NCBI GenBank assembly: GCA_025355995.1
Contig: JANXYQ010000018.1
Location: forward strand, 1 to 38,949
Length of the DNA stretch: 38,949 nt
From: Spirochaetaceae bacterium
GTDB taxonomy: Bacteria; Spirochaetota; Spirochaetia; Treponematales; Rectinemataceae
Reading direction: 5' to 3'
Positions 12,310-30,698 of the stretch are shown piece after piece. The translations under genes were made by a program, and so were the position numbers. Each line of letters opens with the position of its first letter. Position 1 is the first letter of the stretch. The notes below the pieces were generated by a model. It was not told the origin of the DNA, made no database searches, and saw only the letters and a list, made by a program, of their open reading frames with translations.

Positions 12310-12359
12310 AATCCACTCGTAGGCGAACGACGGGCGTCGCTCGCTCCGCCACGGGGAAC

Positions 12360-12398
12360 CGAGCCGCGCGAGGCCGCCGCGCGGCTCGTTTTATTTTT
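12360..12398 (+). terminator. strong rho-independent terminator of the RRM gene
   Basis: CGAGCCGCGCG and CGCGCGGCTCG form a perfect 11-bp stem with a 7-base loop, followed by TTTTATTTTT. A further GAGCCGCG copy just after the T-run lets an alternative stem form on the minus strand, so the element may also help stop the convergent AraC transcript. Confidence 0.92.
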
Positions 12399-12413
12399 AA
12401 CGAGCCGCGCCCC

Positions 12414-13265: not shown

Positions 13266-13271
13266 ATTATA

Positions 13272-13291
13272 CGGCAAGCTCATTCTTGCCG
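13272..13291. promoter_or_regulatory. perfect 7-bp dyad between araC-type gene and transporter operon
   Basis: CGGCAAG and CTTGCCG form a perfect inverted repeat around 6 bases. It sits over the likely -10 region of the AraC gene (TTGACA at 13310-13305, 17 bases, AAGAAT) and upstream of the divergent binding-protein gene. It is a good candidate operator for autoregulation. Confidence 0.5.
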
Positions 13292-13310
13292 ACGCGGAGC
13301 ATCCTGTCAA
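13282..13310 (-). promoter_or_regulatory. possible promoter of the AraC gene
   Basis: On the minus strand a perfect TTGACA (13310-13305), 17 bases, then AAGAAT (4 of 6). It would start transcription only about 10 bases before the ATG at 13265, leaving no room for a ribosome site. Confidence 0.4.
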
Positions 13311-13404
13311 TACTGCCTAATCGTCGCAGAAGGCCTATGCGCGCAGGGTCTAGCAAACGACGGTATCCGCACCCTCCCAGTACGAGAGGTGCAAGGAGGA
13401 ATTG

Positions 13405-14664: not shown

Positions 14665-14681
14665 GCTTCAGGAGAAACGGA

Positions 14682-15566
14682 ATGGCCATGAGCACGAGGC
14701 TCCGCGACAACATCGAAGGCTATCTTTTTATCGCTCCTGCCTTCGCAGGGTTCCTCGTGTTCATGGTCTACCCCATCATCGCGTCCTTCGTGCTGGGCAC
14801 CTACGAGTGGACGCTGACCGGGAAGCCGAATTTCATCGGCCTCGCGAATTTCCGGGAGCTGGCGAGGGACGAGGTCTTCTGGATCAGCATCAGGAATACC
14901 GTCAAGTGGGTGATAGCCTACGTCCCCGCGAGCATCATCTTCGCCTTCCTGCTGGCGAACGCGATGGACAAGCCGATGCGGGGAGTGATCGCGTACAGGA
15001 CCATCTTCTACCTCCCCTCCGTATCGCCGCTCATCGGAGTCGCCCTCCTCTTCGTCTGGCTGTACAACCGGGACTTCGGCCTGCTCAACTACGTCCTCTC
15101 CTTCGCCGGTCTGGGGCCCGTGGGTTGGCTCTCCGACCCGAGGATATCCATCTTCAGCGTCGCCCTCATGTACCTGTACAAGGAGGTGGGCTACAACATC
15201 CTCATCCTCCTCGCGGCCATGCAGGGCATTCCGCGGCAGCTCTACGAGGCGGCCGACCTGGACGGGGCCACCGGCTTCAAGAAGCTCTGGTACGTCAAGC
15301 TGCCCCTGCTGACGCCCGCTTTCTACTACATCGCCATCATATCGCTCATCTACGCCTTCCAGGTCTTCACCGAGATCTACGTGATGACCAAGGGCGGGCC
15401 TGGCAACTCCACCTATACCCTGGGCTACTATATCTACGCGAACGCCTTCCAATACCAGAGGATGGGCTACGCGAGCGCCCTGGCGATCGTCCTCTTCTTC
15501 GTGATCCTTGCCGTGACCCTGCTGCAGAACCGCTTCCTGGGCAGGAAGGTGCAATATGACCTCTAG
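14682..15566 (+). CDS. ABC sugar transporter permease (MalF/UgpA type)
   Basis: This is a 294-residue permease with six predicted membrane helices. It begins with the family's N-terminal helix (YLFIAPAFAGFLVFMVYPII). The EAA loop that contacts the ATPase is EAADLDGATGFKKLWYVKLPLL-like, near residues 187-208. FTEIYVMTKGGPGNSTYTL is the conserved stretch before the last helices. It follows the binding-protein gene by 17 bases with AGGAGA upstream of the ATG. It overlaps the next permease by 11 bases. No ATPase gene is in the operon. Such systems normally share a MsmX/MsiK-type ATPase encoded elsewhere. Confidence 0.94.
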   Translation: MAMSTRLRDNIEGYLFIAPAFAGFLVFMVYPIIASFVLGTYEWTLTGKPNFIGLANFRELARDEVFWISIRNTVKWVIAYVPASIIFAFLLANAMDKPMRGVIAYRTIFYLPSVSPLIGVALLFVWLYNRDFGLLNYVLSFAGLGPVGWLSDPRISIFSVALMYLYKEVGYNILILLAAMQGIPRQLYEAADLDGATGFKKLWYVKLPLLTPAFYYIAIISLIYAFQVFTEIYVMTKGGPGNSTYTLGYYIYANAFQYQRMGYASALAIVLFFVILAVTLLQNRFLGRKVQYDL

Positions 15567-16410
15567 GCGCATGGCGAGCACCGCTCGCAATATCGCGGTT
15601 TCACGCGTCCTCACCTACACCGTCCTCACCCTCTTCGCCATAGTGGACCTCTTCCCCTTCGTGTGGATGATCCTCTCCTCGCTCAAGTCCCAGTCGGAGA
15701 TATTCCTCCAGCCGCCGATCCTCTTCCCCAAGGTCCTCGCCCTGAAGAACTACTCCATCGCATGGAGGGCCGGCGGCCTCGACTTCACGCGGATGTTCCT
15801 GAACTCCGTCACCATCGCCATACCCGGCACCTTCCTGTGCATGATCTCGTCATCCCTCGCGGCCTACGGCTTCGCGCGGATCCGCTTCTACGGCAGGGAG
15901 ACCATCTTCATGCTCTTCGTGGCCTCGATCATGATGCCCACCATGATGATCCTGATCCCCACCTTCCTCCTCATGCGCCCGTTCATCGACACCTTCATAC
16001 CCCTCATCGCCCGCGTGATGTTCGGCGTGCCCTTCGTCATCTTCCTCTTCAGGCAGTTCTTCATGACCATCCCGCAGGAGCTCGACGACGCGGCCAAGGT
16101 CGACGGCTACTCGCGGTTCCGCATCTGGTGGTCGATCATCATGCCTCTCTCGAAGCCCGTCCTCGCCACCCTGGTGATATTCACCTTCCAGGGACTCTAC
16201 AACGATCTCCTGAACCCCCTCATCTATATAAACTCGAAGTCGCTGTTCACGGTCCAGCTCGGCCTGGCCTCCTTCCGAGGCATGTACACGACGCGCTACG
16301 ATCTCCTGATGGCGGCCTCGGTCTTCACCCTGGCGCCCATACTCGTGCTCTTCGTCGCCGCGCAGAAGTATTTCGTGGAAGGCGTCGTGATGACGGGGCT
16401 CAAGGGCTAG
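15556..16410 (+). CDS. ABC sugar transporter permease (MalG/UgpE type)
   Basis: This is a 284-residue inner-membrane permease of the MalG group. TM1 is near residues 18-37, followed by the conserved periplasmic segment SLKSQSEIFLQPPILFP. The EAA-type loop is ELDDAAKVDGYSRFRIWWSI, and the C-terminal KYFVEGVVMTGLKG is characteristic of the group. The start overlaps the previous permease, with GGAAGG upstream, so translation is probably coupled. It pairs with that permease to form the heterodimeric channel. A GH127 gene follows 43 bases later. Confidence 0.94.
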   Translation: MTSRRMASTARNIAVSRVLTYTVLTLFAIVDLFPFVWMILSSLKSQSEIFLQPPILFPKVLALKNYSIAWRAGGLDFTRMFLNSVTIAIPGTFLCMISSSLAAYGFARIRFYGRETIFMLFVASIMMPTMMILIPTFLLMRPFIDTFIPLIARVMFGVPFVIFLFRQFFMTIPQELDDAAKVDGYSRFRIWWSIIMPLSKPVLATLVIFTFQGLYNDLLNPLIYINSKSLFTVQLGLASFRGMYTTRYDLLMAASVFTLAPILVLFVAAQKYFVEGVVMTGLKG

Positions 16411-16453
16411 CCGGGACCGGACCTCGAATACAATCCAGCAAGGAGCTTTCTCT

Positions 16454-18376
16454 ATGATCCCCGTCGGAATGGAAAACGCGCGCGTCGAGGACGCCTTTTG
16501 GACCAGGTATATGGACGTAGTGCGCGACGTGATGATCCCCTATCAATGGGAGGTCATGAACGACCGCGTCGAAGGCGTGGAGAAGAGCCACGCGATCGCC
16601 AATTTCCGGATAGCGGCCGGGCGGGAAGAAGGCGAGTTCTACGGCTACCGCTTCCAGGACAGCGACGCCTACAAATGGCTGGAGGCGGTCGCCTATTCCC
16701 TGATGCGGACTCCCGATCCCGCCCTCGAGTCCCTCGCCGACTCCTTGATCGAGCTGGTCGGCGCCGCCCAGGGACCGGACGGCTACCTCAACACCTTCTT
16801 CACGATCAAGGATGCCGACAAGCGCTGGAGGAACGAGCGCGACAGCCACGAGCTCTACGTGGCCGGGCACCTTTACGAGGCCGCGGCCGCCTACTTCCGC
16901 GCCACCGGGAAGAGCGCCATCCTCGACATCGCGAGGCGCAACGCCGACCACGTGAGCTCGATCTACGGCAGGGAGGAAGGCAAGAGGCGCGGCTACCCGG
17001 GCCACCAGGTGACGGAGATGGCCCTCGTCTCGCTCTACGAGGCGACGGGGGAGACGCGCTTCCTCGACCTCGCCCGCTTCTTCGTCGACGAGCGCGGCGC
17101 GGAACCCAAGTACTTCGAGGTCGAAGCCGCCGCGCGGGGCCAGGAGGGCGACAAGGGCCGCTTCGGCGACCGGGCCTCCGAGTACCTGCAGGCCCATCTC
17201 CCGGCGAGGGAGCAGCGCGTGGCGGTCGGCCACGCCGTGCGCGCGGTCTACATGTATAGCGCGATGGCTGACCTCGCCGCGATCGACGGCGACGAGGGCC
17301 TCGCCGCCGCCTGCCGCGCCCTCTGGGAGGACGTCACGCGGCGGCAGATGTTCATCACCGGCGGCATCGGCCAGGAGGAATTCTGGGAAGGCTTCTCTCG
17401 AGACTACGACCTCCCCAACGACATGACCTACAACGAGACCTGCGCCTCGGTCGGCCTGGTATTCTGGGCGAGGCGCATGGCCGCCCTCGAGCTCAAGGGC
17501 GATTACTACGACGTCGCCGAGAAGGCCCTGTACAACGGCGTCCTCTCCGGCATGTCGCTCGACGGCAAGAGGTATTTCTACGTCAACCTCCTCGAGTCCG
17601 ACCCCAAGGAGATCGCCGCCCGCAGGGACACCGATTACGCGGCGCCCACCCGGCAAGGCTGGTTCGCCTGCGCCTGCTGCCCCCCGAACCTGGCGAGGCT
17701 CATCGCCTCGCTCGGCTCATACCAATTCTCGCGGGACGACGGAAGCATCGCGATCCACCTCTATTCCTCCGGAGAGGCGGCCATCGAGACGGCCGGTACC
17801 CGCGTCGCGATCGCGGTGGAGGGCGAATATCCCTGGAACGAGAGTATCCGAGTACGCGTGGATCCCGAGGCCGGGGCGACCTTCGCCCTGCGCGCGCGAG
17901 TGCCCGGCTGGTGCGAGTCCTTCGAGGCCTCGGTCGCGGGAGAGAGCTTCCGCGAGCTCAGGGACGGCTATCTCATCATCGACAGGGCCTGGGCGCGGGG
18001 CGACGTCGTCGAGCTCCTCCTCCGGATGCCGGTCAGGCGCATGCGCGCCCATCCCTCCGTAAGGGCCGATGCGGGCAAGGTGGCGCTTACCCGCGGTCCC
18101 GTCGTCTACTGCCTCGAGGAGAAGGACAACGGCCCCGAGCTGTGGGACATCGCCCTCGCGCGGGAGAGCGCCTTCGAGGCGCGCTTCGAGCCGGAGCTCC
18201 TCGGCGGCGTCGTCGCGATCTACTGCGACGGGACGAGGTCGACGGGCGACTGGGAGGGCAGGCTGTACGCGGAGGAGTCGCAGGAAAGAAGGCCGGTACG
18301 GCTGAAGGCCGTGCCCTACTTCGCCTGGGACAATCGAGGCCTGAACGCCATGGAAGTCTGGATCAACCAGCGCTGA
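16454..18376 (+). CDS. GH127 beta-L-arabinofuranosidase-like glycosidase (copy A)
   Basis: This is a 640-residue glycoside hydrolase of family 127 (DUF1680). The Zn-thiolate active site of HypBA1-type enzymes is complete. Glu328 and Cys330 lie in YNETCAS, Cys408 and Cys409 in FACACCPPN, and Glu312 lies 16 residues before Glu328, as for the acid/base Glu322 of HypBA1. Cys408 would be the nucleophile. There is no signal peptide, so the enzyme should act on imported oligosaccharides in the cytoplasm. Family members remove beta-L-arabinofuranose, typically from hydroxyproline-linked or other plant-derived arabinosides; some GH127 enzymes have other specificities. AAGGAG stands 8 bases before the ATG. 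It is last in the plus-strand operon and convergent with the serine-hydrolase gene 42 bases away. Confidence 0.93.
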   Translation: MIPVGMENARVEDAFWTRYMDVVRDVMIPYQWEVMNDRVEGVEKSHAIANFRIAAGREEGEFYGYRFQDSDAYKWLEAVAYSLMRTPDPALESLADSLIELVGAAQGPDGYLNTFFTIKDADKRWRNERDSHELYVAGHLYEAAAAYFRATGKSAILDIARRNADHVSSIYGREEGKRRGYPGHQVTEMALVSLYEATGETRFLDLARFFVDERGAEPKYFEVEAAARGQEGDKGRFGDRASEYLQAHLPAREQRVAVGHAVRAVYMYSAMADLAAIDGDEGLAAACRALWEDVTRRQMFITGGIGQEEFWEGFSRDYDLPNDMTYNETCASVGLVFWARRMAALELKGDYYDVAEKALYNGVLSGMSLDGKRYFYVNLLESDPKEIAARRDTDYAAPTRQGWFACACCPPNLARLIASLGSYQFSRDDGSIAIHLYSSGEAAIETAGTRVAIAVEGEYPWNESIRVRVDPEAGATFALRARVPGWCESFEASVAGESFRELRDGYLIIDRAWARGDVVELLLRMPVRRMRAHPSVRADAGKVALTRGPVVYCLEEKDNGPELWDIALARESAFEARFEPELLGGVVAIYCDGTRSTGDWEGRLYAEESQERRPVRLKAVPYFAWDNRGLNAMEVWINQR

Positions 18377-18418
18377 GGAAGATCCCCCTCGTCCCGAGCG
18401 GCGCCCATCCCGGCCGGA

Positions 18419-19474
18419 CTAGCGCGCGGCCGGGACGATGTAGAGCGAGAGCAGGGGGAATATCGCCTTGTGGCCGTGATCGGGCGTCGAGGCGGTCGTT
18501 ACAACGACGAGGTTTTTTTTCGGGATTACCAGGATGGTCTGCCCGTCGAGGCCCAGGGCCGCGAAGCCATCGACCGCCGGATAGACCCACCACAGGTATC
18601 CGTAGCCCAGCCCGTCGGGATTGCCGAAATCGGGAACCCGCGGGGCCGCCGCGACGTCGAGCCAAGCCCTCGAAACGATCCGCTTGCCGTCCCACTCCCC
18701 GCCCCGAAGGACAAGATAGCCCAGCTTCGCCATGTCGCGGGGAGTCAGCCTGAGCCCCCAGCCGCCTATGGAGATTCCATTACGGTCCTTTTGCCATTCG
18801 AAGCGCTTGATGCCGAGCGGCTCGAACAGGAAATTGCGGGCGAAGTCGGCGCTTTCCATCCCCGTGCTCCTGCGTATCAGCGAGGACAGTATATGGACGG
18901 CGCCCGAATCGTAATTGAAAACGGTGCCCGGTTTGGCGATTAGGGGCAGTCCCATCACGTAGGCGATCGGATCGGAGGCGGACATCATGGACCAATACGC
19001 CTGGTCGCCTTCGACCCATCCCAACCCCGAAGTCATGGTGAGGAGGTTCCCGATGGTGATCGATCTCTTCCGGGGATCGGGATTCCGGAACGAGTCATAG
19101 TTCAGGATATCCGTGAACGGGACATCGACGCTCGCGATCTGGCCCCTGTCGATTCCCATGCCGATCAAGGTCGAGACGACGCTCTTGGTCACGGAGTAGA
19201 GATCTGCCAACCGGTTCTTGTCGTAGCCCTGGAAGTAGTTTTCGCTGACGAGGTAGCCGTTCCGGACGATGAGAAGGCTATGGATGCCGGTATCGTTCTT
19301 TCGGATGATATCGAGGGCCTCCGCGACCTTGCCGGGATCGATTCCCTGCGCCTCGAGTGTCGAGGTCCGCCATGAGCGGGTAGGCCACTCGGATTCGCGC
19401 CCGGCGCAGGAGGCCAGGGCCGCCGCGGAAGCCGCCAAGAAGATGAACGAGAGAAAGCCGTTTGGAAACTTCAC
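18419..19474 (-). CDS. serine hydrolase lipoprotein, beta-lactamase/PBP4*-like family
   Basis: This is a 351-residue member of the serine beta-lactamase-like superfamily (Pfam Beta-lactamase). An N-terminal lipoprotein signal ends in the lipobox LASC, with Cys23 or so as the lipidated residue, so the enzyme should sit on the cell envelope. The catalytic SxxK is SVTK, the second motif is YDSG, and the third-motif position near the C-terminus reads LDGQ rather than KTG. Many such proteins are esterases or peptidases rather than beta-lactamases. The start is a GTG six bases after the chemoreceptor gene's stop, with no close ribosome site, so coupling is likely. As the last gene of the arabinan operon it might remove ester groups from plant polysaccharide; that is inference. 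Confidence 0.88.
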   Translation of the reverse strand: MKFPNGFLSFIFLAASAAALASCAGRESEWPTRSWRTSTLEAQGIDPGKVAEALDIIRKNDTGIHSLLIVRNGYLVSENYFQGYDKNRLADLYSVTKSVVSTLIGMGIDRGQIASVDVPFTDILNYDSFRNPDPRKRSITIGNLLTMTSGLGWVEGDQAYWSMMSASDPIAYVMGLPLIAKPGTVFNYDSGAVHILSSLIRRSTGMESADFARNFLFEPLGIKRFEWQKDRNGISIGGWGLRLTPRDMAKLGYLVLRGGEWDGKRIVSRAWLDVAAAPRVPDFGNPDGLGYGYLWWVYPAVDGFAALGLDGQTILVIPKKNLVVVTTASTPDHGHKAIFPLLSLYIVPAAR

Positions 19475-19479
19475 CGCGA

Positions 19480-21330
19480 TCAGGATAATCCCTCCTCATA
19501 GGCAGGGGAAGAGACCGATGCGCCGTCCGCCCGGGTCTTGTAGCCCGAGACGCTCGCGTGGAGCTCCTTGACGGATTCGGCGATAGTCCAGCTGAGGTCG
19601 CGCAGGTGCTGCATCGCGGCTCCGCTGTCCTTCGACCCCGCCTCGATCTCGCCGATGCCGCCCTTGATCTCCTGGCCCAGGCCCGTCACGGCCGCGGCCG
19701 CCTCGGAGGCGCTCCGGGAGCTCTCCAGGATCTCCCCCGACCGCGCCTTAGCCTCCCGCGAGTTGCCCGCGACCAGCTCGACGTCGCCGGCCACGCCCAT
19801 GGCCGCGGCCGACAGCTCGCGCAGGAGGCCCTGCAACTCCCCCATGCTCGACCTCGCCTCTCGCGTCATCTTCTCTATGCCGCGGAAATCCGCGTCGGTC
19901 TGGGAGCTCGCGCCCGAGACCTCCTCGATCTTCTTCGCCATGTGGCTGATCGTGTCCCCGATCAGCACGGAGTTCTCGTTGGTGGACTCCGCGAGCTTGC
20001 GTATCTCCTCGGCGACCACGGCGAAGCCTCGCCCGGCGTCGCCCGCGTGCGCCGCCTCTATCGCGGCGTTCATGGCGAGTATGTTGGTCTGCTCGGCGAC
20101 CGCGTTGATGATGTCGACGACGTCCTTGACCTTGCCGACGTCCTCCACGGTGCCGGCGATCGCCGCGTTCATCTGGGCGAGCCGCTCCAGCTCTACCGAG
20201 GCCAGCGCCTCGAGTCTCGTCGAATCCTCGCCCTGCCGGATCGCTATCGCGTCCGCCCTCGACGCGGCCTCCCTCATCTCGCCCGCCCGCCTGCTCGAGC
20301 GCGCCAGGGCCTCGCTCTGCGCCGCGAGCCGCTCGTCGAGGGCGCCGACGCTCAGCCCGATCGCCGTCGAGGCCTCGCTCGAAGAGTCCATGCGCGACAC
20401 CAGCTCATCGATCCGCGCCCGGATCGAGCCGATGTTGGCCGCGATCTGCTCTATGGAGGCAGCGGTTTCGCTGGACGCGGAGAGTATCTCCTCGCGCACG
20501 GCCGTCGCCCCCTCCGCCATCCCCGATACGCGGCCGATGAGGCCGGCGAAGTCCGAGATGGTGCCGTTGATCTCGGAGGCCAGGACCGAGAGCTCGTCCG
20601 TGCCGCCGAGTGTGACTTTCACTGAGAAGTCCCTCGCGTTCCAGGTCTCTATCGCCCTGCCGAAACTTCCCAGCGAGCTGGCGAAGGCCCTCACGAAGCT
20701 TATCAGCAGGATTCCCGTCGCGGCGCCGGCCCCGATCGAGAGGATTATGACGAGGAGCGAGAGGGAACGCTCCGTGGCTTCGGCCCTCCGGGACACCGAG
20801 AGGTTTATCTTGACGAGCGCGCCGTCGAGGTAGGTGTCGAGGGTCGTGACGAATAGGGGCAGGCGCTTATCGAGGGCGTAGGCATCGGCCGAGGAGTTGT
20901 CGAGGCTGAGATTGATCGCCCTCGTCGGGACGCCGGCGCTCGAAAGGGCGTCCCCGGCCTCGGCCACCGCCGAGGATTGCTGCTTCGCGAGCTCCCAGAC
21001 TTTCGCCAGGGCCTCGCGCAGCTTCGCGTCGTCGCCCGATCCGAGTGCCCGCGCGAGCGTCCTGTTCTGCGCGAAGGACTTGATGAGCGCGTCGGTGGAT
21101 TTGATGGAGGCCGCCCAGGCCGCGTAGCTTTCCCGGAAGTTGGTCGACGTGAGGAGCTCGTCGCTGAGGAAGCGCAGGCGGAATATCTCCTTGCCCAGGT
21201 TGGAAGAATCCAGCTTCAATTCCTGGAGGCCGCCATTCGCGCCTTTATAAATGAAGAACATCGAGACGCTCATCAACAATGCGGCCAGGGTCACGAATAG
21301 TAAAAGGGTCATTCTCCTGCGGATCTTCAT
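19480..21330 (-). CDS. methyl-accepting chemotaxis protein with helical sensor (MCP3)
   Basis: This is a 616-residue chemoreceptor of a different class from the two dCache receptors. It has TM1 ([20 protein letters not shown]), a mainly helical periplasmic domain of about 170 residues resembling a four-helix bundle, and TM2 ([20 protein letters not shown]). HAMP and the signalling coiled coil follow, with tip [21 protein letters not shown]. The C-terminus ([12 protein letters not shown]) has no CheR pentapeptide. The start is the ATG at 21330, preceded by TTGGAGG with good spacing; the upstream frame overlaps the GH127 gene and is not used. It lies in a glycan-utilisation operon, 44 bases after GH127 copy B and 5 bases before the lipoprotein gene. 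A role in sensing the same sugars or the loaded binding protein is plausible. Confidence 0.93.
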
Positions 21331-21374
21331 GCTCGCCTCCAAAAAATGGGAACCCAGGCGAGTTTTAAATATGG

Positions 21375-23402
21375 CTATTCCTTCGAACGCAACCAGACTC
21401 GCATTTCTCCGCCGGGGGCGCGGTTTCCCCATTGATGGTATGGAACGAGCTTTATGGCGGTAGGGGCGAGGCGGCTCTCGCCCGCGTCCTCGTAAGGCAT
21501 GGCGCTCGAGCGATGCGTATCCATGCTTCGCAGATCCTCGCGATACCCTTGGGCCTCGATCAGGACGGATCCGCCCATGAGCGAGGGATCGTATTCGGCC
21601 CGCAGCTCGCTCTTCCTATCGAGGACGAGGGCGTGGAGCCCTTCGCCGTTGTCCGTCGACTCGACGCAATAGACGAGGGGGCCCCTCTGCACCGCTAGCT
21701 TGCCGGCCAGCTCGGGTATCCTGCCATCGGCGCGGATGAGGCTGGGCTCCATCGCCAAGTCGAGCTCGACCCTGTCCCCGGGCTTCCAGTTCCTGCGGAT
21801 GGACAGGTATCCCTTGGATACGTCGGCGGTCTCGGCCCTGCGGCCGTTGATCGAGCAGGCGAAAGACCGGCACCAGCCGGGGATCCGGAGCTTGAGGGAG
21901 AACTCGACCTCCCTATCGGGGTCGACGAAGAGGGCGATGGAGCCCGACCAGGGATAATCGGTCCTCTGGGAAACGCGCAATCTCGTCCCCGAGACTTGCG
22001 TCTCCGATTCGCTCTCGGCGTAGTGATGAACCCAGAGCGCGTCTCCCCCGACGCCGTAGGCGTACGAAGCGATGGAGGCGACGAGGCGGGCGATGTTCGG
22101 CGGGCAGCAGGAGCAGCCGAACCATTGCACTCGCTGGCCCTTCACGTGCTCGTGGTCCTGGCGGCAATCGACCACCTCGGGGATGACCTCCAGGGGGTTC
22201 ACGTAGAAATAATGAGTGCCGTCCAAGGAGACGCCGCTCAGGGCTCCGTTGTAGACGACGCGCTCGAGGACGTCGGCGTAGCGCGAATCGCCCTCGACCT
22301 CGGTCATCCGTTTGGCCCAGTTGGCCAGGCCGATCGAGGCGCAGGTCTCGGAGTAGGCAGTGTCCGAGGGAAGGTCGTAATCGGCCGTGAAGCGCTCGCC
22401 GTGGGACTGAGAGCCTATCCCTCCGGTGATGTACATGCGTCGCGATACGGCGCTGTCCCAGAGCCCGCGAAGCGCCTTCAGCAGGGCCTCGTCGCCGGTC
22501 GCGGAGTACAGGTCGGCCATCGCCAAGTAGAGATAGACCGCGCGGACGGCATGGCCGGTCGCGTCCGGCTGGGAGCGAACGGGAGCGTGGTTCTGCATAT
22601 AGTCGCGCTCGAACCACTTGGTCTTCGGGATTTCGAAACCGTAGTAACCCGCCATCTCGGGCCATGGCGTCGAAGTAGACGCCCCCAGGGGCTTCTTGCC
22701 GTCGAAGGCCGCTGGGTCGCTGCCGCGCTGGTCGACGAAGAAGGCCGCGAGATCTCGGTACCGGGTCTCGCCGGTCGCCCCGTAGAGCCGGAACAGGGCC
22801 AGCTCGATTTCCGGATGGCCACAGACGCCGCGGATCTTGCCGGGCGCGGTCCCGAAGGCCCGGTCGATGCAGTCCGCGTAGCGGCGCGCCACTTCCAGGA
22901 GCTTGGATTTCCGTTTTTCCGCGTCAGGCGAAGCCCTAGCGTATGCGTCATGCGCGACGGCAGCCTCTATGAGGTGACCCGCGCAGTAAAGCTCGTGCCC
23001 CCATGCCAGGTCGGCCCAGCGATGCTCCGGCGCTGTGACGATAAAGTAGGTATTCACGTAGCCGTCGGGCCGTTGGGTTTTGGCGATGAGGCGGATAACC
23101 TCGTCGACCCGCCGCTCGAGCTCCGTATCGGGGTGGTGAGAGAGGCTGTAGCTCGCCGCCTCTAGCCACTTCGCCACGTCGCTGTCCTGGAAGACCGTGC
23201 CCATGAAGCGCCCGGACGCTTCGCCGGCGGCGATACGGAAATTTTCGATGGCGTGCGAAGGCACGGCGCCCGGCACCTCGTCGTTGAGCGCCAGCCACTG
23301 ATAGGGCAGCATCTCCTTCGCGACCATGTCGATCTTACGCGCCCAGAAGCCCCCCGTGATGCGGGCCTCGTCCAGCCCGAGTCCCCTGATACTAGTCATC
23401 AT
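21375..23402 (-). CDS. GH127 beta-L-arabinofuranosidase-like glycosidase (copy B)
   Basis: This is a 675-residue second GH127 enzyme, clearly diverged from copy A but with the same active-site layout. Glu336 is in SHGERF, Glu352 and Cys354 in YSETCAS, and Cys432 and Cys433 in GCSCCPPN. It has no signal peptide and is predicted cytoplasmic. Compared with copy A it has an insertion of roughly 24 residues before the conserved [11 protein letters not shown] helix, which may change substrate range. Two ATGs stand together at the start; AAGGATGAA precedes them. It follows two permease genes on the same strand and precedes the chemoreceptor gene, so it belongs to the minus-strand arabinan operon. 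Confidence 0.93.
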
Positions 23403-23467
23403 TTCATCCTTGCCCCGCGCTCCGCGCGGTTATTTTATGTGCGGCCCGGGCAGCCGCCCCGCCCGAG

Positions 23468-24298
23468 TCAAGACTTGAGGCCCGAGAGCACGATGCCCTC
23501 GATGAAGTACTTCTGTCCGAAAAAATACAGCGCGACCGCGGGCGCCACGGACATCACGGAGGCGGCCATGATCGCCTTGTAGTCGGTGCCGAAGCCCGCC
23601 CGGAAATTCGCGAGCCCCTGGGCGATGGTATTCTGGTCGTTCCGGTTTATGTAGATGAGGGGCCCGAGCACGTCGTTCCAATAGAGTATGAAGGCGAACA
23701 GGCCGATCGAGATGAGGACGGGCTTGATCAACGGCAGGAGCACGCGGAAGAGGATGGTGGCGTGACCCGCACCGTCGATGTGGGCCGCCTCGTCGAGGTC
23801 CTTGGGGATGCCCATGAAGAATTGCCTGCTCAGGAAGATGTTGAAGGCGCCCCCGCCGAGGAAGGCGGGCACGATGAGCGGCACGTAGCCCGAGGGGAAG
23901 CCCAGGGCCACCCAGCCCTTGAAGATCGGGATGATGGTCACCGTGCCGGGCATGAGCATGGAGGCCAGGACCAGCGCGAAGATCGTCTTCTTGAAGGGGA
24001 AGTCGATCCGCGCGAGGGCGTAGGCGGCCATCGTGGACGTGAGAAGGATGCCGAAGACCGAGGGCAGGGTGATCGTCAGCGTGTTGACTAGGTACTTCCC
24101 AAAGGGGAAGAGCGTGAGGGCGTTCGGGTAGTTCTCGAACTTGAAGACCTTCGGGAAGAACACGGGGGGGTACGAGTAGATCTCGAGGTTGCCCATGAAG
24201 GAGGAGCGGAGCATCCAGTAGAAGGGGAAGACGCAGGCCAGCCCCATGAAGGCGACGACGAGCGAGAGCGGCAGGTTGGTTCGGTTCTGGGTATTCAT
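23468..24298 (-). CDS. ABC sugar transporter permease (MalG type), second system
   Basis: This is a 276-residue MalG-like permease with six predicted helices and the conserved periplasmic segment SSFMGNLEIYSYPPVFFPKV. Its ATPase-contact loop is DLDEAAHIDGAGHATILFRV and its C-terminus is KYFIEGIVLSGLKS. The ATG at 24298 lies 7 bases after the preceding permease stop and has GAGG about 6 bases upstream. The in-frame extension further upstream overlaps the other permease gene and is unlikely. It is related to, but distinct from, the plus-strand permease at 15556-16410, so the locus has two parallel importers. Confidence 0.94.
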   Translation of the reverse strand: MNTQNRTNLPLSLVVAFMGLACVFPFYWMLRSSFMGNLEIYSYPPVFFPKVFKFENYPNALTLFPFGKYLVNTLTITLPSVFGILLTSTMAAYALARIDFPFKKTIFALVLASMLMPGTVTIIPIFKGWVALGFPSGYVPLIVPAFLGGGAFNIFLSRQFFMGIPKDLDEAAHIDGAGHATILFRVLLPLIKPVLISIGLFAFILYWNDVLGPLIYINRNDQNTIAQGLANFRAGFGTDYKAIMAASVMSVAPAVALYFFGQKYFIEGIVLSGLKS

Positions 24299-24305
24299 GC
24301 TTTCC

Positions 24306-25187
24306 TCACTCGCCCTCGTAGAACATCCACTTGCGGGACGTGGCATAGGTGATCGCCGTCACGACCGCGATCAGCGCGAAGAATATGAGCGACACGGCCG
24401 CGGAGTAGCCGAAGCGGTTGTTCTGGAATCCCGTCCGGAAGATATAGTAGACCATGTAGAGGGTCGTCATGTTGGGCGCCCCGCGCGTGACCTGCGCCGG
24501 GACGAAGACCTGGAGGTTGGCCACGATGCTCGTGAGCACGTTGAAGAGGATGACCGGCGAGAGCAGAGGGAGGGTCACGTGGCGGAACTTGTGCCAGGCA
24601 TTGCCCCCGTCCATCTCCACCGCCTCGAGATAGGTCCTCGGGATGCCCTGCAGGCCCGCGAGGTAGATGACGATGAAGTTGCCGAAGCTCCAGATGGTCA
24701 TGAGCCCGAGGGCCGGCGTCGCGGTGAGCTCGTCCCCCATCCATTTGATCTTGTCGATGCCTACGAACCCGAGGACGTAGTTGATGACCCCGAAGTTGGC
24801 CTCGTACATCCACATCCAGACGATGACCGCTCCGATGCTGGGCACGATGAAGGGCAGGAAGAAGATGGAGCGGAACAGGCCGCGCCCGATGATCTTCTGG
24901 TTCAATAGGAGGGCCGCAAGGAAGGCGTAGACCGTCCCGATTATGACCGTGAACAAGGCGAAATAGATCGTGGACCTGGCCGAGGTCCCGAAGAACATGT
25001 CGTCGGTGAAGATCTCCTTGAAATTCTGGAGGCCTACGAAGACGGGCGCCTTCAGCGCGTTCCACTGCGTCAGGCTCATGCCCGCGACGCCGAGAAGGGG
25101 AACGAAGGTGTAGAGCACCAGCCCCAGGATGGCCGGCGCCAGGAATAGGTACGCCGCGACGGCGTTTTTGGTACTAGCTCTGCTCAT
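24306..25187 (-). CDS. ABC sugar transporter permease (MalF type), second system
   Basis: This is a 293-residue MalF/UgpA-like inner-membrane permease. The first helix is AAYLFLAPAILGLVLYTFVP. The family segment LTQWNALKAPVFVGLQNFKE leads into the core, and the EAA loop is YLEAVEMDGGNAWHKFRHVT. It forms the channel with the permease encoded directly downstream. The binding-protein gene is upstream, separated by a perfect 12-bp hairpin. No ATPase is encoded nearby. Confidence 0.94.
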   Translation of the reverse strand: MSRASTKNAVAAYLFLAPAILGLVLYTFVPLLGVAGMSLTQWNALKAPVFVGLQNFKEIFTDDMFFGTSARSTIYFALFTVIIGTVYAFLAALLLNQKIIGRGLFRSIFFLPFIVPSIGAVIVWMWMYEANFGVINYVLGFVGIDKIKWMGDELTATPALGLMTIWSFGNFIVIYLAGLQGIPRTYLEAVEMDGGNAWHKFRHVTLPLLSPVILFNVLTSIVANLQVFVPAQVTRGAPNMTTLYMVYYIFRTGFQNNRFGYSAAVSLIFFALIAVVTAITYATSRKWMFYEGE

Positions 25188-25232
25188 GTCTCGGCACCCT
25201 TGTATGCGGAATCATCGCGCGCGGCCATAGTT

Positions 25233-25260
25233 CCCCGGGCGGCCGGTCGGCCGCCCGGGG
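25233..25260 (-). repeat. perfect 12-bp hairpin between binding-protein and permease genes
   Basis: CCCCGGGCGGCC and GGCCGCCCGGGG are perfectly complementary around a 4-base loop. There is no T-run. Stable hairpins at this position in ABC operons protect the upstream binding-protein mRNA or partly stop transcription, which gives more binding protein than permease. Here that function is inferred from position. Confidence 0.75.
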
Positions 25261-25276
25261 AGGGGAATCGCCAGAC

Positions 25277-26611
25277 TTACTTGGCCTTGTGCTCGTCGAA
25301 ATACTTCTGGAGCTTGGGCATGATCGAGGCGATGTAGGCCTTCGCGGTGGTCTTGCCGTTCCAGACGGCGTCGACGCCGGACTCGAGGATGTCGTTCAGG
25401 CCCTGGTAGCCGTTGAAGTAGTACCAAGGAACCTGGACAGCGTTGTTCATCGCGTAGTCGATGACCGCGGTCTTGTACTGGGCGAAGGCGGGCCTCGGCG
25501 GATGGTCGGCCCACTCGCGCATGGCCGCCTCGCTGGTGTACCACTTGGACATGACCGGCATCAGGATGCCACCGGTGATCAGGCTCCACTGGTTCTTCTC
25601 GTCGGCCCACCACTTGATCCACTCCATGGCCTCGGGGAGGTGCTTGGAGGTCTTGAAGATGCCGAAGGGGGCGCCAGTGTTGTAGGTGACGGCCTTCTTC
25701 ATCTTGGGGAGGACGCCGACGCCGTACTCGAGGCCGTCCTTGAGGGAGTTGTTGAGCGAGACGCCCATCTCCCACTGGCCCGACGTCGCCATCGCGACCT
25801 TTCCGGTCAGGAGGGTGAGGTCGAGGCTGGGCATGGCCGCCTTGTCCGCGACTGAGGGAGCGACCTTGTCCTTGAGGTAGAGGTCGGCGAGCATCTGCAT
25901 GGCCTCGGTGGACTCAGGGCGGTCGATGAGGAGGTTCTTGCCGTCGGGGCTGATGAGGCCGCCGCCGTTGGAATAGCACACGATGGGCCACATCCACGAC
26001 AGGCGGTTGAAATCGACGCCGTACTGGACGACGTTCTTGGGGTCGAATCCGGCCTGGTCGGCGGACTTCCCGTTCTTGTCCTTGGTGAGCTTCTTGGCGA
26101 CCGCCACGAAGTCCTTCCAGGCCCAGGCCTTATCGGCGGAGGCGGGAGGATAGGGGATCTTGGCGGCGTCGAAGAGCTTCTTGTTGTAGTAAAGGAGGAG
26201 GACTTCGTTGCCCGAGCTGTAGCCGACCGGCTTCCCATTATAGGTGAAGGTCAGCGACTTGAGGGGCGCGGCGTCCTTGGGGTACATCGTGCCGACGTCG
26301 GCGAGGAGGTCGGCGGCCGCGAATTCGATCGTCATGGCCTCGGAGAGCTGGGTGCAGTCTGGGAGCTGCCCGGCGGCGGCCATCGTATTGACCTTGGTCT
26401 CGTAGCCGTCGCGCGGGATCGCCAGCATCGTCACGTGGATCTTGCTCTGCGACGAGTTGAAGGTGTCGATGATGGCCTGGTTGCCCTGGGCCTCCGACTG
26501 CGTGGTGTTGTACCAGCACATGTACGTGACCTCGACCGGCGCCGCGACCGCGATTCCGACGAGGACCGCGGACATGAGCGCGCATACTAAAAGCTTCTTC
26601 GAGAAAGTCAT
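25277..26611 (-). CDS. ABC sugar transporter, extracellular solute-binding protein, second system
   Basis: This is a 444-residue family 1 binding protein. The signal peptide is MTFSKKLLVCALMSAVLVGIAVAA, without a lipobox. The mature start is VEVTYMCWYNTTQSEAQGNQ. VNTMAAAGQLPDCTQLSEAM, GKPVGYSSGNEVLLLYYNKKLF and LLTGKVAMATSGQWEMGVSL are typical fold landmarks. The ATG at 26611 has AAAAGGAGAGAG upstream; the longer frame starting at 26725 runs through the leader and is not used. It is only distantly similar to the binding protein at 13405-14664. It heads the six-gene minus-strand operon, and an AraR-like site lies about 60 bases upstream. Confidence 0.93.
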   Translation of the reverse strand: MTFSKKLLVCALMSAVLVGIAVAAPVEVTYMCWYNTTQSEAQGNQAIIDTFNSSQSKIHVTMLAIPRDGYETKVNTMAAAGQLPDCTQLSEAMTIEFAAADLLADVGTMYPKDAAPLKSLTFTYNGKPVGYSSGNEVLLLYYNKKLFDAAKIPYPPASADKAWAWKDFVAVAKKLTKDKNGKSADQAGFDPKNVVQYGVDFNRLSWMWPIVCYSNGGGLISPDGKNLLIDRPESTEAMQMLADLYLKDKVAPSVADKAAMPSLDLTLLTGKVAMATSGQWEMGVSLNNSLKDGLEYGVGVLPKMKKAVTYNTGAPFGIFKTSKHLPEAMEWIKWWADEKNQWSLITGGILMPVMSKWYTSEAAMREWADHPPRPAFAQYKTAVIDYAMNNAVQVPWYYFNGYQGLNDILESGVDAVWNGKTTAKAYIASIMPKLQKYFDEHKAK

Positions 26612-26673
26612 TCTGCTCTCTCTCCTTTTATTCGATGCCCGCTGGACCGTGACCGGGCCGTTCGCGGGACAAC

Positions 26674-26687
26674 GATAACCTGATATC
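26674..26687. promoter_or_regulatory. candidate AraR-type operator upstream of second transporter operon
   Basis: The sequence GATAACCTGATATC closely resembles GATAACCATGATAGC in the araR promoter. It lies 63 bases before the binding-protein start, where a repressor site would be expected. One short match, so confidence is moderate to low. Confidence 0.4.
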
Positions 26688-26735
26688 TGTACGCTCGATC
26701 GCCTTCGCGGATATAATCGGCGCACCCGACGACTT

Positions 26736-26776
26736 GCGGTACCGGGGTTTTGCTTCCAGGCGGATCCCGGTACTGC
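26736..26776 (-). repeat. inverted repeat between araR and binding-protein gene
   Basis: GCGGTACCGGG and CCCGGTACTGC pair over 11 positions with one mismatch around a 19-base loop. It lies after the araR stop and could shape or weaken read-through from araR into the transporter operon. No T-run follows on the minus strand. Confidence 0.4.
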
Positions 26777-26832
26777 GGTTGTTGGCCATTAGCCGGCGAA
26801 GGCCGGCCTCTGCTCCTTCAATCTCCCCCTCT

Positions 26833-27978
26833 TTATCGCTTCACCTCCTTGCACGATTCGCGGACGATCAAGTCGATGGGATATTCCAATCTCACGGGGG
26901 GCAGGGCCCCGCCCTCGATGCGCTCGAGCACGCGCTTGACGGCGGAGCGGGCCATGTCCCGCGAGTAGATCCTCATGGTGGTCAGCGGCGGCGAGGAGTG
27001 CCGGGCCAGCTCGGTGTCGTCGAAGCCCACGACGCCGACGTCCTCGGGGACGCGCAGCCCGTGCTTGGCCAAGGCCGAGAGGGCGCCGACGGCCAGCAGG
27101 TCGTTGGCGCAGAAGACGGCCGTTATGTCGGGCCTGCGATCGACCAAATCTTCCATGGCCGCGTAGCCCGCCTCGGCCGACCAGCCCTCGCCGCCGCAGG
27201 CGAGGCCCTCGTCGGCCTGCGTCTCGTCCTTCCACGCGGCGAAGCGCACGCGCGCCGACTCGATGCTCAGGGGGCCGTTGACGATGCCGATGCGCTCGTG
27301 GCCGAGGCCCCGCATGAAGCGGAGGGCCTTGCGCACGCCCGAGCCGATGTCCATCGTCACGCAATCGAGGCGCTCATGGATGGCCGTGGGCGCGAGCAGG
27401 GCGGTGGGCACGCCGGAACGCTCCAGCAGGTCGAGGAAGGAAGGATCGCGGGCCTCCTCCACGACGAGGCCGTCCACCTTGTCGAGGAAGCTCCTGAAGG
27501 CGGCGACCTCTTCCGCGCTGCCCTCGTCGAGGTAGGTGAAGAGCATGTGTCTGCCCGACCGCACGCTCTCCTCCTCGATGCCGGCGAAGACGTCGAAGTA
27601 GAAGGCCTCGGAGGATATCGGCTTCCGGAGAGAACGCTCCTTGCAGATCACGTAGCCGAAGGTGCCTTTGGCGGCAGGCCGCGCGGGCTGCACGGCGCCC
27701 GGGCGCTGGCGAACGAAGGTTCCCTGCCCGATCTTGCGGTCGAACATGCTCCTCGTAGTCAATTCCTGGATCGCGTTCCTGACCGTCGTCCGGCTGACTT
27801 CGAGCTTGATCGAGAGCTCGCGCTCGGAAGGGATCTTCGAGCCGACGGGCCATTCATTGGATTCGATCTTGCCCAGGATGAAGTTCTCGACCTGGGTCTG
27901 CATCGAGTCATGGACATTCCGGCGAATGGTATCAAGTGGTTCCATTTCGTCGGAATTACTTTCAGGAATTGATACCAT
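26833..27978 (-). CDS. araR: AraR-type repressor (GntR DNA-binding and LacI sugar-binding domains)
   Basis: This is a 381-residue hybrid regulator. A GntR winged helix at about residues 25-90 (GSKIPSERELSIKLEVSRTT) is joined to a LacI/periplasmic-binding-like effector domain (FGYVICKERSLRKP...FYFDVFAGIEEESVRSGRH). The C-terminal half has the LacI marks AVFCANDLLAVGAL and VGVVGFDDTELARHSSPPLTT. This architecture is that of B. subtilis AraR, which represses arabinose and arabinan genes until L-arabinose binds. The start is uncertain. The ATG at 27978 lies 8 bases after a likely -10 box, as on a leaderless mRNA. The ATG at 27945 (MEPLDTIRRN) would also suit the domain boundary. It diverges from the GH51 gene and precedes the second transporter operon. 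The symbol is given by architecture and context. Confidence 0.88.
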   Translation of the reverse strand: MVSIPESNSDEMEPLDTIRRNVHDSMQTQVENFILGKIESNEWPVGSKIPSERELSIKLEVSRTTVRNAIQELTTRSMFDRKIGQGTFVRQRPGAVQPARPAAKGTFGYVICKERSLRKPISSEAFYFDVFAGIEEESVRSGRHMLFTYLDEGSAEEVAAFRSFLDKVDGLVVEEARDPSFLDLLERSGVPTALLAPTAIHERLDCVTMDIGSGVRKALRFMRGLGHERIGIVNGPLSIESARVRFAAWKDETQADEGLACGGEGWSAEAGYAAMEDLVDRRPDITAVFCANDLLAVGALSALAKHGLRVPEDVGVVGFDDTELARHSSPPLTTMRIYSRDMARSAVKRVLERIEGGALPPVRLEYPIDLIVRESCKEVKR

Positions 27979-27992
27979 TGATAACCATGATA
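27969..27992. promoter_or_regulatory. candidate AraR operator over the araR promoter
   Basis: The plus strand reads TTGATACCATT followed by GATAACCATGATA, two similar half-sites in the same orientation. The right end covers the -10 box of the araR promoter. A third GGTATCAA-type copy lies inside the gene at 27928-27935. Similar paired sites precede the GH51 gene. Confidence 0.5.
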
Positions 27993-28014
27993 GCACTCCT
28001 TTATAGTCTGTCAA
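27987..28014 (-). promoter_or_regulatory. sigma-70-type promoter of araR
   Basis: On the minus strand a perfect TTGACA (28014-28009), 16 bases, then TATCAT (27992-27987), 5 of 6. Transcription should begin near 27980, two bases before the ATG at 27978. Confidence 0.65.
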
Positions 28015-28166
28015 GAGTGAATATTTTCAAGCTCACTCAGATATTTGTTGATATTATTAGATTTCTTGTTAATACTCAGAGAAACCTGAAGACCCTTTCC
28101 AATTGAAATTGAGGACATGGTGAATTATTGGTATCTAATGGTATCATGCCAAAAGTAAGGAGAACT
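28015..28166 (+). promoter_or_regulatory. AT-rich promoter region and leader of the GH51 gene
   Basis: This is a marked AT-rich stretch in otherwise GC-rich DNA. It contains GAGTGA-N12-TCACTC (28015-28038). Candidate boxes such as TTGAAA-17-TATTGG can be drawn here, but none is compelling. The paired operator-like repeat GGTATC-TAAT-GGTATC lies at 28130-28145, and AAGGAG precedes the ATG at 28167. Confidence 0.5.
28129..28148. promoter_or_regulatory. candidate AraR operator upstream of GH51 gene
   Basis: Two direct copies of GGTATC are spaced 10 bases start-to-start (TGGTATCTAATGGTATCATG), matching on the opposite strand the GATACCATTgATAaCCAT arrangement at the araR promoter. The position is 20-40 bases before the start codon, suited to repression. 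Confidence 0.5.
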
Positions 28167-29678
28167 ATGAAAGCTCGAATGACCATCGATCGCGACTACA
28201 GAATCGGGGATATCAATAGACGATTATATGGTTCTTTCATCGAGCACCTCGGCAGGGCAGTGTATGGCGGCATCTACGAGCCGGGCCACCCCGACGCCGA
28301 CGGCCGGGGATTCAGGCGCGACGTGCTCGGCCTCGTACGAGAGCTAGGAGTACCGGTGGTGCGCTATCCGGGAGGCAACTTCGTCTGCTCCTTCGATTGG
28401 GAGGACTCGGTCGGCCCGGTCGAAGCCAGGCCCGCGCGCCTCGACCTCGCCTGGCGCTCCCTGGAACCCAACCTCTTCGGCCTCAACGAATTCATGGCCT
28501 GGGCGAAGGAAGCGGGAACCGAGGCCATGATGGCCCTCAACCTGGGCACGCGCGGAATCGACGCAGCCAGGAACCTGCTCGAGTACTGCAATTACCCGGG
28601 CGGAACCTACTGGTCCGACCTGCGCAGGAGCCACGGCGTATCGGAGCCATACGGCATCAAGCTCTGGTGCATCGGCAACGAGATGGATGGCCCCTGGCAG
28701 GTCGGCCAGAAGACAGCCGAGGAGTACGGGCGCCTGGCCTACGAGACCGCGAAGGCGATGCGGCTCTTCGATCCTTCGCTGGAGCTCGTGGCCTGCGGCA
28801 GTTCCTTCGCCGCGATGCCCACCTTCCCCGACTGGGAGGCGACGGTCCTCGGCCACTGCTACGAGCAGGTCGATTACGTTTCGCTCCATTCATACTACCA
28901 GAATACGGCCGACGACCTCGGCGAGTACCTCGCGGATTCGGTCGGGATGGGCGAGTTCATCGACTCGGTGGCGAGCGCCTGTGATTTCGTCAAGGCCAGG
29001 AAGCGGAGCCGCAAGACTATGATGCTCTCCTTCGACGAGTGGAACGTCTGGTTCCACACCAACGCGGATGACCGCCACGTGGATCCCTGGAGGGTCGGTC
29101 CTCCCCTCCTCGAGGATGCCTACACCTTCGAGGACGCCCTCGTCGTCGGCTGCCTCATCATCGCTCTCCTGAAGCGCGCCGACCGCGTGAAGATCGCCTG
29201 CCTCGCCCAGCTCGTCAATGTGATCGCCCCTATCATGACGGCGAGAGGAGGCCAGGCGTGGCGACAGACCATCTTCTACCCCTTCCTCCACGCCTCGCGC
29301 TACGGCCGCGGGACGGCGCTGGACCTCCGCGTGGACGCGCCGACATACGAGAGCAAGCGCTTCGGCCCGGTGCCCTACGTGGACGCGGTCGCCACGGTCG
29401 ACGAAGGAGCCGGCGAGATGGCGGTCTTCGCGGTCAACCGCTCGCTCACTGAACGAGCGGAGGTGGAGCTGCGCCTCGGGGGTTACGAGTCCTGGGCCTT
29501 CGCGGAGCGCATCGAGCTCGCTGGCTTCGACCCGAAGGCCGCCAACACGGCCGAGCGCCCGCTCGCCGTGTTCCCGCGGAGCTCGCCCGAGGGCGCCAGC
29601 GTCGAGGGCGGGATGCTGAGGACCAGCCTGCCGCCGTTATCGTGGAGCGTGATCCGCCTGGCCGCCCCGCGCCGCTAA
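28167..29678 (+). CDS. GH51 alpha-L-arabinofuranosidase
   Basis: This is a 503-residue intracellular arabinofuranosidase of glycoside hydrolase family 51, at the usual length. The N-terminal motif GDINRRLYGSFIEHLGRAVYG and VPVVRYPGGNFVCSFDW are diagnostic. The acid/base is Glu172 in CIGNEMDGPW and the nucleophile Glu291 in SFDEWNVW. A C-terminal beta-domain ends SWSVIRLA. There is no signal peptide. It releases alpha-L-arabinofuranose from imported arabino-oligosaccharides and so complements the two GH127 enzymes. I chose the ATG at 28167 because TAAGGAG precedes it. The in-frame TTG at 28128 would place the operator-like repeat within the coding sequence. The 3' end overlaps the convergent pseudouridine synthase gene by 42 bases. 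Confidence 0.96.
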   Translation: MKARMTIDRDYRIGDINRRLYGSFIEHLGRAVYGGIYEPGHPDADGRGFRRDVLGLVRELGVPVVRYPGGNFVCSFDWEDSVGPVEARPARLDLAWRSLEPNLFGLNEFMAWAKEAGTEAMMALNLGTRGIDAARNLLEYCNYPGGTYWSDLRRSHGVSEPYGIKLWCIGNEMDGPWQVGQKTAEEYGRLAYETAKAMRLFDPSLELVACGSSFAAMPTFPDWEATVLGHCYEQVDYVSLHSYYQNTADDLGEYLADSVGMGEFIDSVASACDFVKARKRSRKTMMLSFDEWNVWFHTNADDRHVDPWRVGPPLLEDAYTFEDALVVGCLIIALLKRADRVKIACLAQLVNVIAPIMTARGGQAWRQTIFYPFLHASRYGRGTALDLRVDAPTYESKRFGPVPYVDAVATVDEGAGEMAVFAVNRSLTERAEVELRLGGYESWAFAERIELAGFDPKAANTAERPLAVFPRSSPEGASVEGGMLRTSLPPLSWSVIRLAAPRR

Positions 29679-30698
29679 AGACCCGCCGCGGCCGAACTCG
29701 GCCGCCAGGGCGAGGAGTGCCTCCTTGAATCGCGAGGGAAGCGGGGCCTTGAAGAGACTGGGCTCGGCCCTGCCCGGCAGCGCTATCTTAAGCCTGTAAG
29801 CGTGGAGCATGAGAGTCGCCGCCGGGAAGCGGCCGTCCTTCTTGCCGTAGATGGGATCGCCGAGGATGGGCGTACCCAGGCCGGCCATGTGCACGCGCAG
29901 CTGGTGGGTGCGGCCGGTCTTGGGCCGGAGCGAGACGAGGGCGTAGCCGCCGCTCGCACCGCCTCCCCAGGAGGACAGCACTCGGTAGTCCGTGACGGCG
30001 GCCCTGCCGCCCTCCCCGACTGCGGTGAAACGCTTGCGCTCGCGGGGGTCGCGGCCGAGTCGGTCCGCGATGCGCCCCGAGGCGGGCGAAGGCAAGCCCC
30101 TCGTGATGGCCAGGTACTCCTTCCGTGCGAGCCTCTCCTTGAATTGCGCTGCCAGGAAGACCTGGGCCTCGAGGTCCTTGGCCAGGATTATTGCCCCGGA
30201 GGTGTCCTTATCCAAACGATGAACGATGCCCGAGCGCGCGGCCGGCAGCCTGGCCCCCTCGCCAGCGGCAGCCACGCGCTCGCGTCGGGCGATAAAAAGG
30301 GCGGCGTTGGCGAGGGTGCCGCGCCAATTCCCGGCGCCGGGGTGGGTGACCATGCCCTGAGCTTTGTCTACGACGAGGACGCGCTCGTCCTGGTAGAGGA
30401 TATTCAGGGGGAGGTCCTCGGCCTCGACGACGGAGGAATCCTCCTCGGTCCAGAGCAGCTCGAGGCGATCCCCGGATTTCAAGGGCCTGGAAGGCTTGGC
30501 GACCGCCCCGTTCACGAGGATGACGGCTCCCCTCGCCTTGAGCTGGGAGCGGCTCATGACGCAGGCAGTCTCGGCGAGGTAGACGTCGGCGCGCGCCGCG
30601 CCTTCGGGCCCCACCTGCCCACTCCAGCTCCGAGCGAGGTCGGGATTGGGATCGGGGGGCGGCCCGGCGGGAATAGGGGGCTTCTTGGCCTTCTTCAT
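29637..30698 (-). CDS. RluA/RluD-family 23S rRNA pseudouridine synthase
   Basis: This is a 353-residue protein. A Pro-rich N-terminal extension leads into an S4 RNA-binding domain (RADVYLAETACVMSRSQLKA...GAVILVNG). The pseudouridine synthase domain has catalytic Asp in HRLDKDTSGAIILAK, then RKEYLAITRG and KTGRTHQLRVHMAGLGTPILGD. The order fits the RluD type, which makes pseudouridines in 23S rRNA helix 69, but RluA-family subtypes cannot be separated safely by eye. An extended -10 box, TGCTATAAA, ends only 7 bases before the ATG and no ribosome site is visible, so the mRNA may be leaderless. It is convergent with and overlaps the GH51 gene, and diverges from the sod gene. Confidence 0.93.
   Translation of the reverse strand: MKKAKKPPIPAGPPPDPNPDLARSWSGQVGPEGAARADVYLAETACVMSRSQLKARGAVILVNGAVAKPSRPLKSGDRLELLWTEEDSSVVEAEDLPLNILYQDERVLVVDKAQGMVTHPGAGNWRGTLANAALFIARRERVAAAGEGARLPAARSGIVHRLDKDTSGAIILAKDLEAQVFLAAQFKERLARKEYLAITRGLPSPASGRIADRLGRDPRERKRFTAVGEGGRAAVTDYRVLSSWGGGASGGYALVSLRPKTGRTHQLRVHMAGLGTPILGDPIYGKKDGRFPAATLMLHAYRLKIALPGRAEPSLFKAPLPSRFKEALLALAAEFGRGGSLAARGGQADHAPR

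Follow-up and report, generated by a model that had tools for sequence, protein, structure and literature searches.

A chemoreceptor gene and a lipoprotein hydrolase gene behind a predicted arabino-oligosaccharide importer in a variable island of a spirochaete genome

Does a bacterium that makes an importer for a plant sugar also make, from the same transcript, a receptor with which to swim toward that sugar? The question is raised by a run of six minus-strand genes (26611-18419) in a 38,949-nucleotide stretch of Spirochaetaceae DNA, the whole of which is here called the window. In order, they encode a solute-binding protein (SBP2, 25277-26611), two ABC permeases (2A, 24306-25187; 2B, 23468-24298), a predicted GH127 beta-L-arabinofuranosidase (GH127-2, 21375-23402), a chemoreceptor of 616 aa (MCP, 19480-21330) and a serine-hydrolase lipoprotein of the S12 / beta-lactamase fold with a GTG start (18419-19474). 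All six products score above Pfam cut-offs: SBP_bac_1, BPD_transp_1 (twice), the three GH127 domains, MCPsignal and Beta-lactamase (PF00144, 119 bits). An original prediction, made from the sequence alone, had given this order, strand and pair of outer coordinates, all of which were borne out.

The genes lie 5 to 89 bases apart when measured from gene starts picked by codon usage: 89 bases between SBP2 and permease 2A, 7 between the permeases, 65 between permease 2B and GH127-2, 44 between GH127-2 and the MCP, and 5 between the MCP and the hydrolase. The MCP start was taken as 21330; a longer reading frame would begin at 21432. Because the six genes are tightly packed on one strand, and the last two gaps hold no predicted terminator-like or sigma70-like site, their co-transcription, as originally proposed, is probable. 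A flagellar sigma28-type promoter for the MCP was dropped as a candidate, since the pattern matches at chance frequency and is absent upstream of the gene. Between SBP2 and permease 2A lies a strong intercistronic hairpin (25185-25280, minus strand; -50.2 kcal/mol, z -3.5) that none of 200 shuffles equalled in stability and that no T run follows. By analogy with other sugar importer operons, it would set the level of SBP2 above that of the permease.

The likely cargo is indicated by solved relatives. The closest to SBP2 is the Geobacillus arabino-oligosaccharide-binding protein AbnE (6rjy, E 4.8e-24), and the closest to GH127-2 are the Geobacillus stearothermophilus enzyme 4qjy (E 6e-199) and then Bifidobacterium HypBA1 (E 1e-144). 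By these two Geobacillus matches, the glycan importer of the original prediction is one for arabinose-containing oligosaccharides. The locus in this respect resembles the arabinan utilisation system of G. stearothermophilus, in whose arabinan cluster we know of no chemoreceptor. GH127-2 has the full three-domain architecture (PF07944, catalytic; PF20736, middle; PF20737, C-terminal), and alignment with 4qjy and 3wkw shows its active-site and metal-site motifs to be present (G-E at 335-336, ETC at 352, CSCCP at 430). The GH127 family also includes aceric acid hydrolases; the match of GH127-2 to the NCBIfam model for these is under the cut-off. Divergent from the operon is a GH51 alpha-L-arabinofuranosidase gene (28170-29678, plus strand; NCBIfam ArfA, 777 bits against a cut-off of 625), so that SBP2, GH127-2 and GH51 each point to arabinosyl substrates. 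Since GH127 enzymes cut beta-linked and GH51 enzymes alpha-linked arabinofuranose, the substrate is best put, on these family assignments, as arabinose-containing oligosaccharides of the plant cell wall and not as pectic arabinan only. The locus contains no ATPase gene, and the importer likely uses a putative shared ATPase encoded elsewhere. To judge from homology, then, the operon core combines an importer of arabino-oligosaccharides with a beta-L-arabinofuranosidase, and is of a known type.

Ahead of the operon lies a gene for a GntR-LacI (AraR-like) regulator (26833-27945, minus strand; Pfam GntR and Peripla_BP_3), whose start at 27945 is inferred, the longest reading frame beginning at 28014. 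The regulator gene accompanies the operon in G002, G003 and G004 too, which represent three other genera of the family. This dedicated regulator and the divergent GH51 gene had both been overlooked. The sequence ATGGTATCA or its complement TGATACCAT occurs three times in the window (at 27926, 27970 and 28138, spanning 27926-28146), always between the 5′ end of the regulator gene and GH51, and these candidate operator boxes recur in the orthologous GH51/regulator region of the same three genera. The box is absent from the binding-protein leader, and none lies upstream of the MCP. A sigma70-like promoter (TTGACA-16-TATCAT, 11 of 12 matches; 27987-28014, minus strand) would serve the regulator and probably the operon too; its TTGACA is conserved in G002 and G003. 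On the simplest interpretation, the regulator would hold down both GH51 and its own promoter, and transcription of the operon would run through the regulator gene.

The two genes at the 3′ end are not conserved along with the core. In the same three genera the core order GH51, regulator, binding protein, permease, permease, GH127 is retained, and neither an MCP nor a hydrolase follows the GH127 gene. Among 42 GH127 loci drawn from the family, the order and the phylum, these three included, the arrangement GH127-MCP-hydrolase was not found once; low-GC relatives were read by six-frame search, the gene caller having been trained on the high-GC window. Only one of the 42 (L150, in the sister species G001) has an MCP-domain protein directly after GH127, which was dropped as a counterpart: it is an MCP of the iron-hydrogenase/ferredoxin type with an unrelated sensor part. 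Also dropped was a weak MCP-like match within another importer-GH127 operon (L179), which is a histidine kinase. The original prediction had treated the six-gene composition as a system and named a lack of conserved gene order in relatives as grounds for refuting it. Conservation of the composition is not supported, and the refutation applies in part, to the MCP and the hydrolase: the orthologous operon ends at GH127 in all three core-bearing genera, and the sister species lacks the island in which the operon lies. From gene order, the MCP and hydrolase are read as a recent, lineage-specific addition to the operon. The novelty lies solely in this particular combination, which the available data show in a single genome.

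That island is a 17-kb stretch (12310-29636). Its left border is an RNA-binding protein gene (12028-12309, plus strand) and its right border an RNA pseudouridine synthase gene (29637-30698, minus strand; Pfam PF00849), the latter placed by comparison with empty sites. The two border genes adjoin each other directly in G001, where they are 142 bases apart, and the site is likewise empty in G003 and G005. Besides the operon, the island carries a second complete GH127 cassette that converges on it and that had gone unnoticed: SBP1, two permeases and GH127-1 (13402-18376, plus strand), with an AraC-type regulator (12414-13310, minus strand; Pfam HTH_18 and AraC_binding). By itself, this cassette is present in G002 (L154) and G004 (L152). 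At the island site, G002 and G004 carry just one cassette each: in G002 it is AraC-SBP-permease-permease-GH127, with an additional gene within it, and in G004 it is the other one, together with its regulator and GH51. Both are present in the window, where they converge, and the MCP and hydrolase genes lie exactly at their seam. Neither a tRNA gene in the window nor direct repeats at the island borders were found, and a tRNA-borne integration site was dropped on the first of these grounds.

The MCP and hydrolase genes may be passengers: a core chemoreceptor copied by duplication, together with an unrelated hydrolase, would have been inserted during island assembly and would be read through from upstream, with no part in arabinan use. 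Such an origin fits the empty site (between 12309 and 29637) of the sister species and two other genera, the single cassette at that site in G002 and G004, the position of the two genes exactly between the convergent cassettes, and the lack of conservation of their order. It accounts less well for their orientation on the operon strand with gaps of only 44 and 5 bases, for the intact state of both reading frames, and for the enrichment of MCP genes behind importers elsewhere in the genome. We hold this explanation to be quite possible and nearly as likely as a function in the operon, if slightly less so.

The enrichment is as follows. In this genome, 38 MCP genes and 156 importer permease domains were counted. 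Computed from domain positions, seven of the 38 MCPs are found no more than 5.5 kb downstream of a same-strand permease, against 2.2 expected at random placement (P 0.005, a guide only, as the 5.5-kb limit was chosen after examples had been seen); the corresponding controls gave one on the opposite strand and none upstream. Six of the seven appear to form unbroken runs with their importer on one strand: the present operon and those at C30, C121, C32, C80 and C67, the C30 run having the order importer, GH112, GH29, MCP. In the seventh (C126), iron-sulphur genes lie between importer and MCP. It is possible, and we put it forward tentatively, that importer operons of this lineage repeatedly capture a 3′ chemoreceptor of their own, from various subfamilies, and that such receptors are induced singly with the uptake system they serve.

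The receptor, a predicted membrane-spanning sensor, comprises TM1, a ligand domain at about residues 34-188, TM2, a HAMP region and a signalling domain, whose hairpin is conserved (MCPsignal, 99.6 bits; tip residues invariant in the alignment). The ligand domain is predicted with high confidence to be a four-helix bundle (pLDDT about 90), and its Foldseek matches, though weak (best E 0.009), include chemoreceptor domains of that kind (Vc1313, Tsr, Tar, PcaY and MCP2201). The receptor is of a type capable of reading a loaded binding protein, in keeping with the mode of sensing first proposed. Taken with the enrichment of MCP genes downstream of importer permeases, the predicted fold makes chemotaxis toward the imported sugar plausible.

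The receptor is closest to a paralogue elsewhere in the genome (C70; 69% identity overall) and to the G001 orthologue of that paralogue. Identity between the window's receptor and the paralogue falls from 80% in the cytoplasmic part to 50% in the ligand domain. This contrast does not indicate a different ligand, because the paralogue and its own G001 orthologue show a similar contrast (50% in the ligand domain, 73% in the rest). Paralogue and orthologue have a common neighbourhood without an importer: RelA/SpoT-TPR upstream, and downstream genes named, from N-terminal sequence only, as thioredoxin, aminotransferase and elongation-factor-like. Two further relatives lie in tandem in G001, behind a carbohydrate esterase (SASA) gene. 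A scan of the named genomes with two short ligand-domain patterns returned three relatives, all already among those known.

That the receptor belongs to the island but senses something other than loaded SBP2, by directly binding, for example, a free amino, organic or aromatic acid from the plant cell wall, is unlikely in our judgement. In favour of this reading, the weak fold matches are to direct-binding four-helix-bundle domains (Vc1313, D-amino acids; PcaY, aromatic acids; MCP2201, malate), and the paralogue's surroundings lack an importer. Against it, fold alone cannot separate direct from indirect sensing, Tar doing both.

The reading we prefer, to which we give an even chance, is that a locally regulated arabinose-oligosaccharide uptake operon gained a 3′ chemoreceptor and a lipoprotein hydrolase, the receptor being induced with the importer and sensing loaded SBP2 or a released product. 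The GntR-LacI repressor, on the ATGGTATCA boxes, would block the GH51 promoter and its own, which would also serve the operon, until an arabinose-derived signal relieved it. SBP2 would then capture the oligosaccharide and the permeases import it, powered by the ATPase encoded elsewhere, for cleavage by GH127 and GH51 in the cytoplasm. Since the receptor would come from the same transcript as the importer, its level should rise when the sugar is in use. Most probably it would either dock loaded SBP2 on its four-helix-bundle domain or itself bind a released sugar or acid. What speaks against this reading is that no relative with the core has the two genes behind GH127, that the closest receptors lie in a conserved neighbourhood of another kind, and that the best fold match is weak.

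Binding proteins common to import and taxis are described for MalE, MglB, TogB of Dickeya and SPH1118 of Sphingomonas A1 (PMC9314435, PMC7055323, PMC4990184), with MglB or RbsB docking on Trg and MalE on Tar (PMC9314435, PMC7055323). The ligand domain considered here is predicted to be of the same broad class, and docking of SBP2 is presumed. For the SPH1118 system, the passages concerned name no specific MCP (PMC9314435, PMC7055323). An MCP gene in an ABC locus for arabinose glycans has already been reported, in the Roseburia gpPUL Ros-7 (PMC5320581). Ros-7 and Ros-8 resemble the present locus in combining a regulator, an ABC importer and arabinan or arabinoxylan hydrolases (PMC5320581). In Roseburia, however, the MCP and GH127 are in separate loci, Ros-8 having GH51 with GH127 and Ros-7 GH51 with a methyl-accepting transducer that is classed as a regulator (PMC5320581), whereas here the MCP and GH127 genes adjoin each other, an S12 lipoprotein gene is next to them, and the host is a spirochaete. 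Of the features that define a gpPUL (PMC5320581), the locus has degrading enzymes (two GH127 and one GH51), transport (a binding protein and two permeases) and a regulator (GntR-LacI); a Gram-positive host is the feature it lacks, its relatives being Spirochaetaceae. It works like a gpPUL, and is not one in the strict sense because its host is not Gram-positive.

Should the receptor read loaded SBP2, this locus would give a genetically clean example, from a spirochaete, of taxis toward a plant cell-wall oligosaccharide that is induced by that same substrate. The island sites that stand empty or half filled in relatives would then show how importer and receptor came to be paired. The six importer-MCP operons should make receptor ligands guessable from the adjoining importer, usually the hard part of chemoreceptor work.

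The last gene is less easily placed. The original prediction had the lipoprotein removing side groups from the glycan at the surface; we found no specific support for this, nothing tying the hydrolase to such a role, and around four homologues no recurrent neighbours were seen. Its closest solved relative is Leptospira Lsa45 (8dc1, residues 45-331), at only moderate similarity (139 bits), followed by 6-aminohexanoate-dimer hydrolases; we know of no functional tie of Lsa45 to sugar use. The protein has a signal peptide with the lipobox LASC (residues 20-23), an S-V-T-K (SxxK) motif and the Beta-lactamase domain, the features of an S12 / family VIII esterase lipoprotein, and would be a lipid-anchored S12 esterase or peptidase.

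The genome that carries the window (G000) holds a second importer-glycosidase-chemoreceptor operon, on its contig C30 (locus L098, 9686-18602). Genes for a binding protein (SBP), two permeases, a lacto-N-biose phosphorylase (GH112), an alpha-L-fucosidase (GH29) and a chemoreceptor (MCP) follow in that order, and abut or overlap from the permeases onward. Another four MCP genes of this genome, at L078 (C32), L084 (C121), L097 (C80) and L100 (C67), lie immediately 3′ of sugar importers of the BPD_transp_2 type, with gaps of 22-151 bases.

Two tandem relatives of the window operon's MCP are found in the sister species G001 (L064, 7195-12957, contig C197), where they follow a carbohydrate esterase (SASA) gene whose end the first MCP overlaps by 4 bases. 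This arrangement is another tie between the receptor family of the operon MCP and glycan genes. Elsewhere in the same species (L150, 10735-14617, contig C51), the gene after a GH127 gene encodes an iron-hydrogenase/ferredoxin protein whose MCP signalling domain is truncated.

Positions 12310-29636 of the window form a variable island site, bordered by genes for an RNA-binding protein and a pseudouridine synthase; comparison with loci L198, L199, L200, L148 and L154 shows that its content differs by genus, with no cassette, one or two.

Two further tandem MCP genes (window 3589-7848) lie near HCP and YmdB/RNase Y genes, and one of them is retained at the same position in G004, from another genus of the family. 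The minus-strand RNase Y gene (window 10015-11544) is broken after residue 187 by a single in-frame TAG at 10981-10983 (..LITTI*RIVTEV..), which may reflect misassembly of the MAG or a mix of strains in it; the frame is open in relatives, at about 500 aa.
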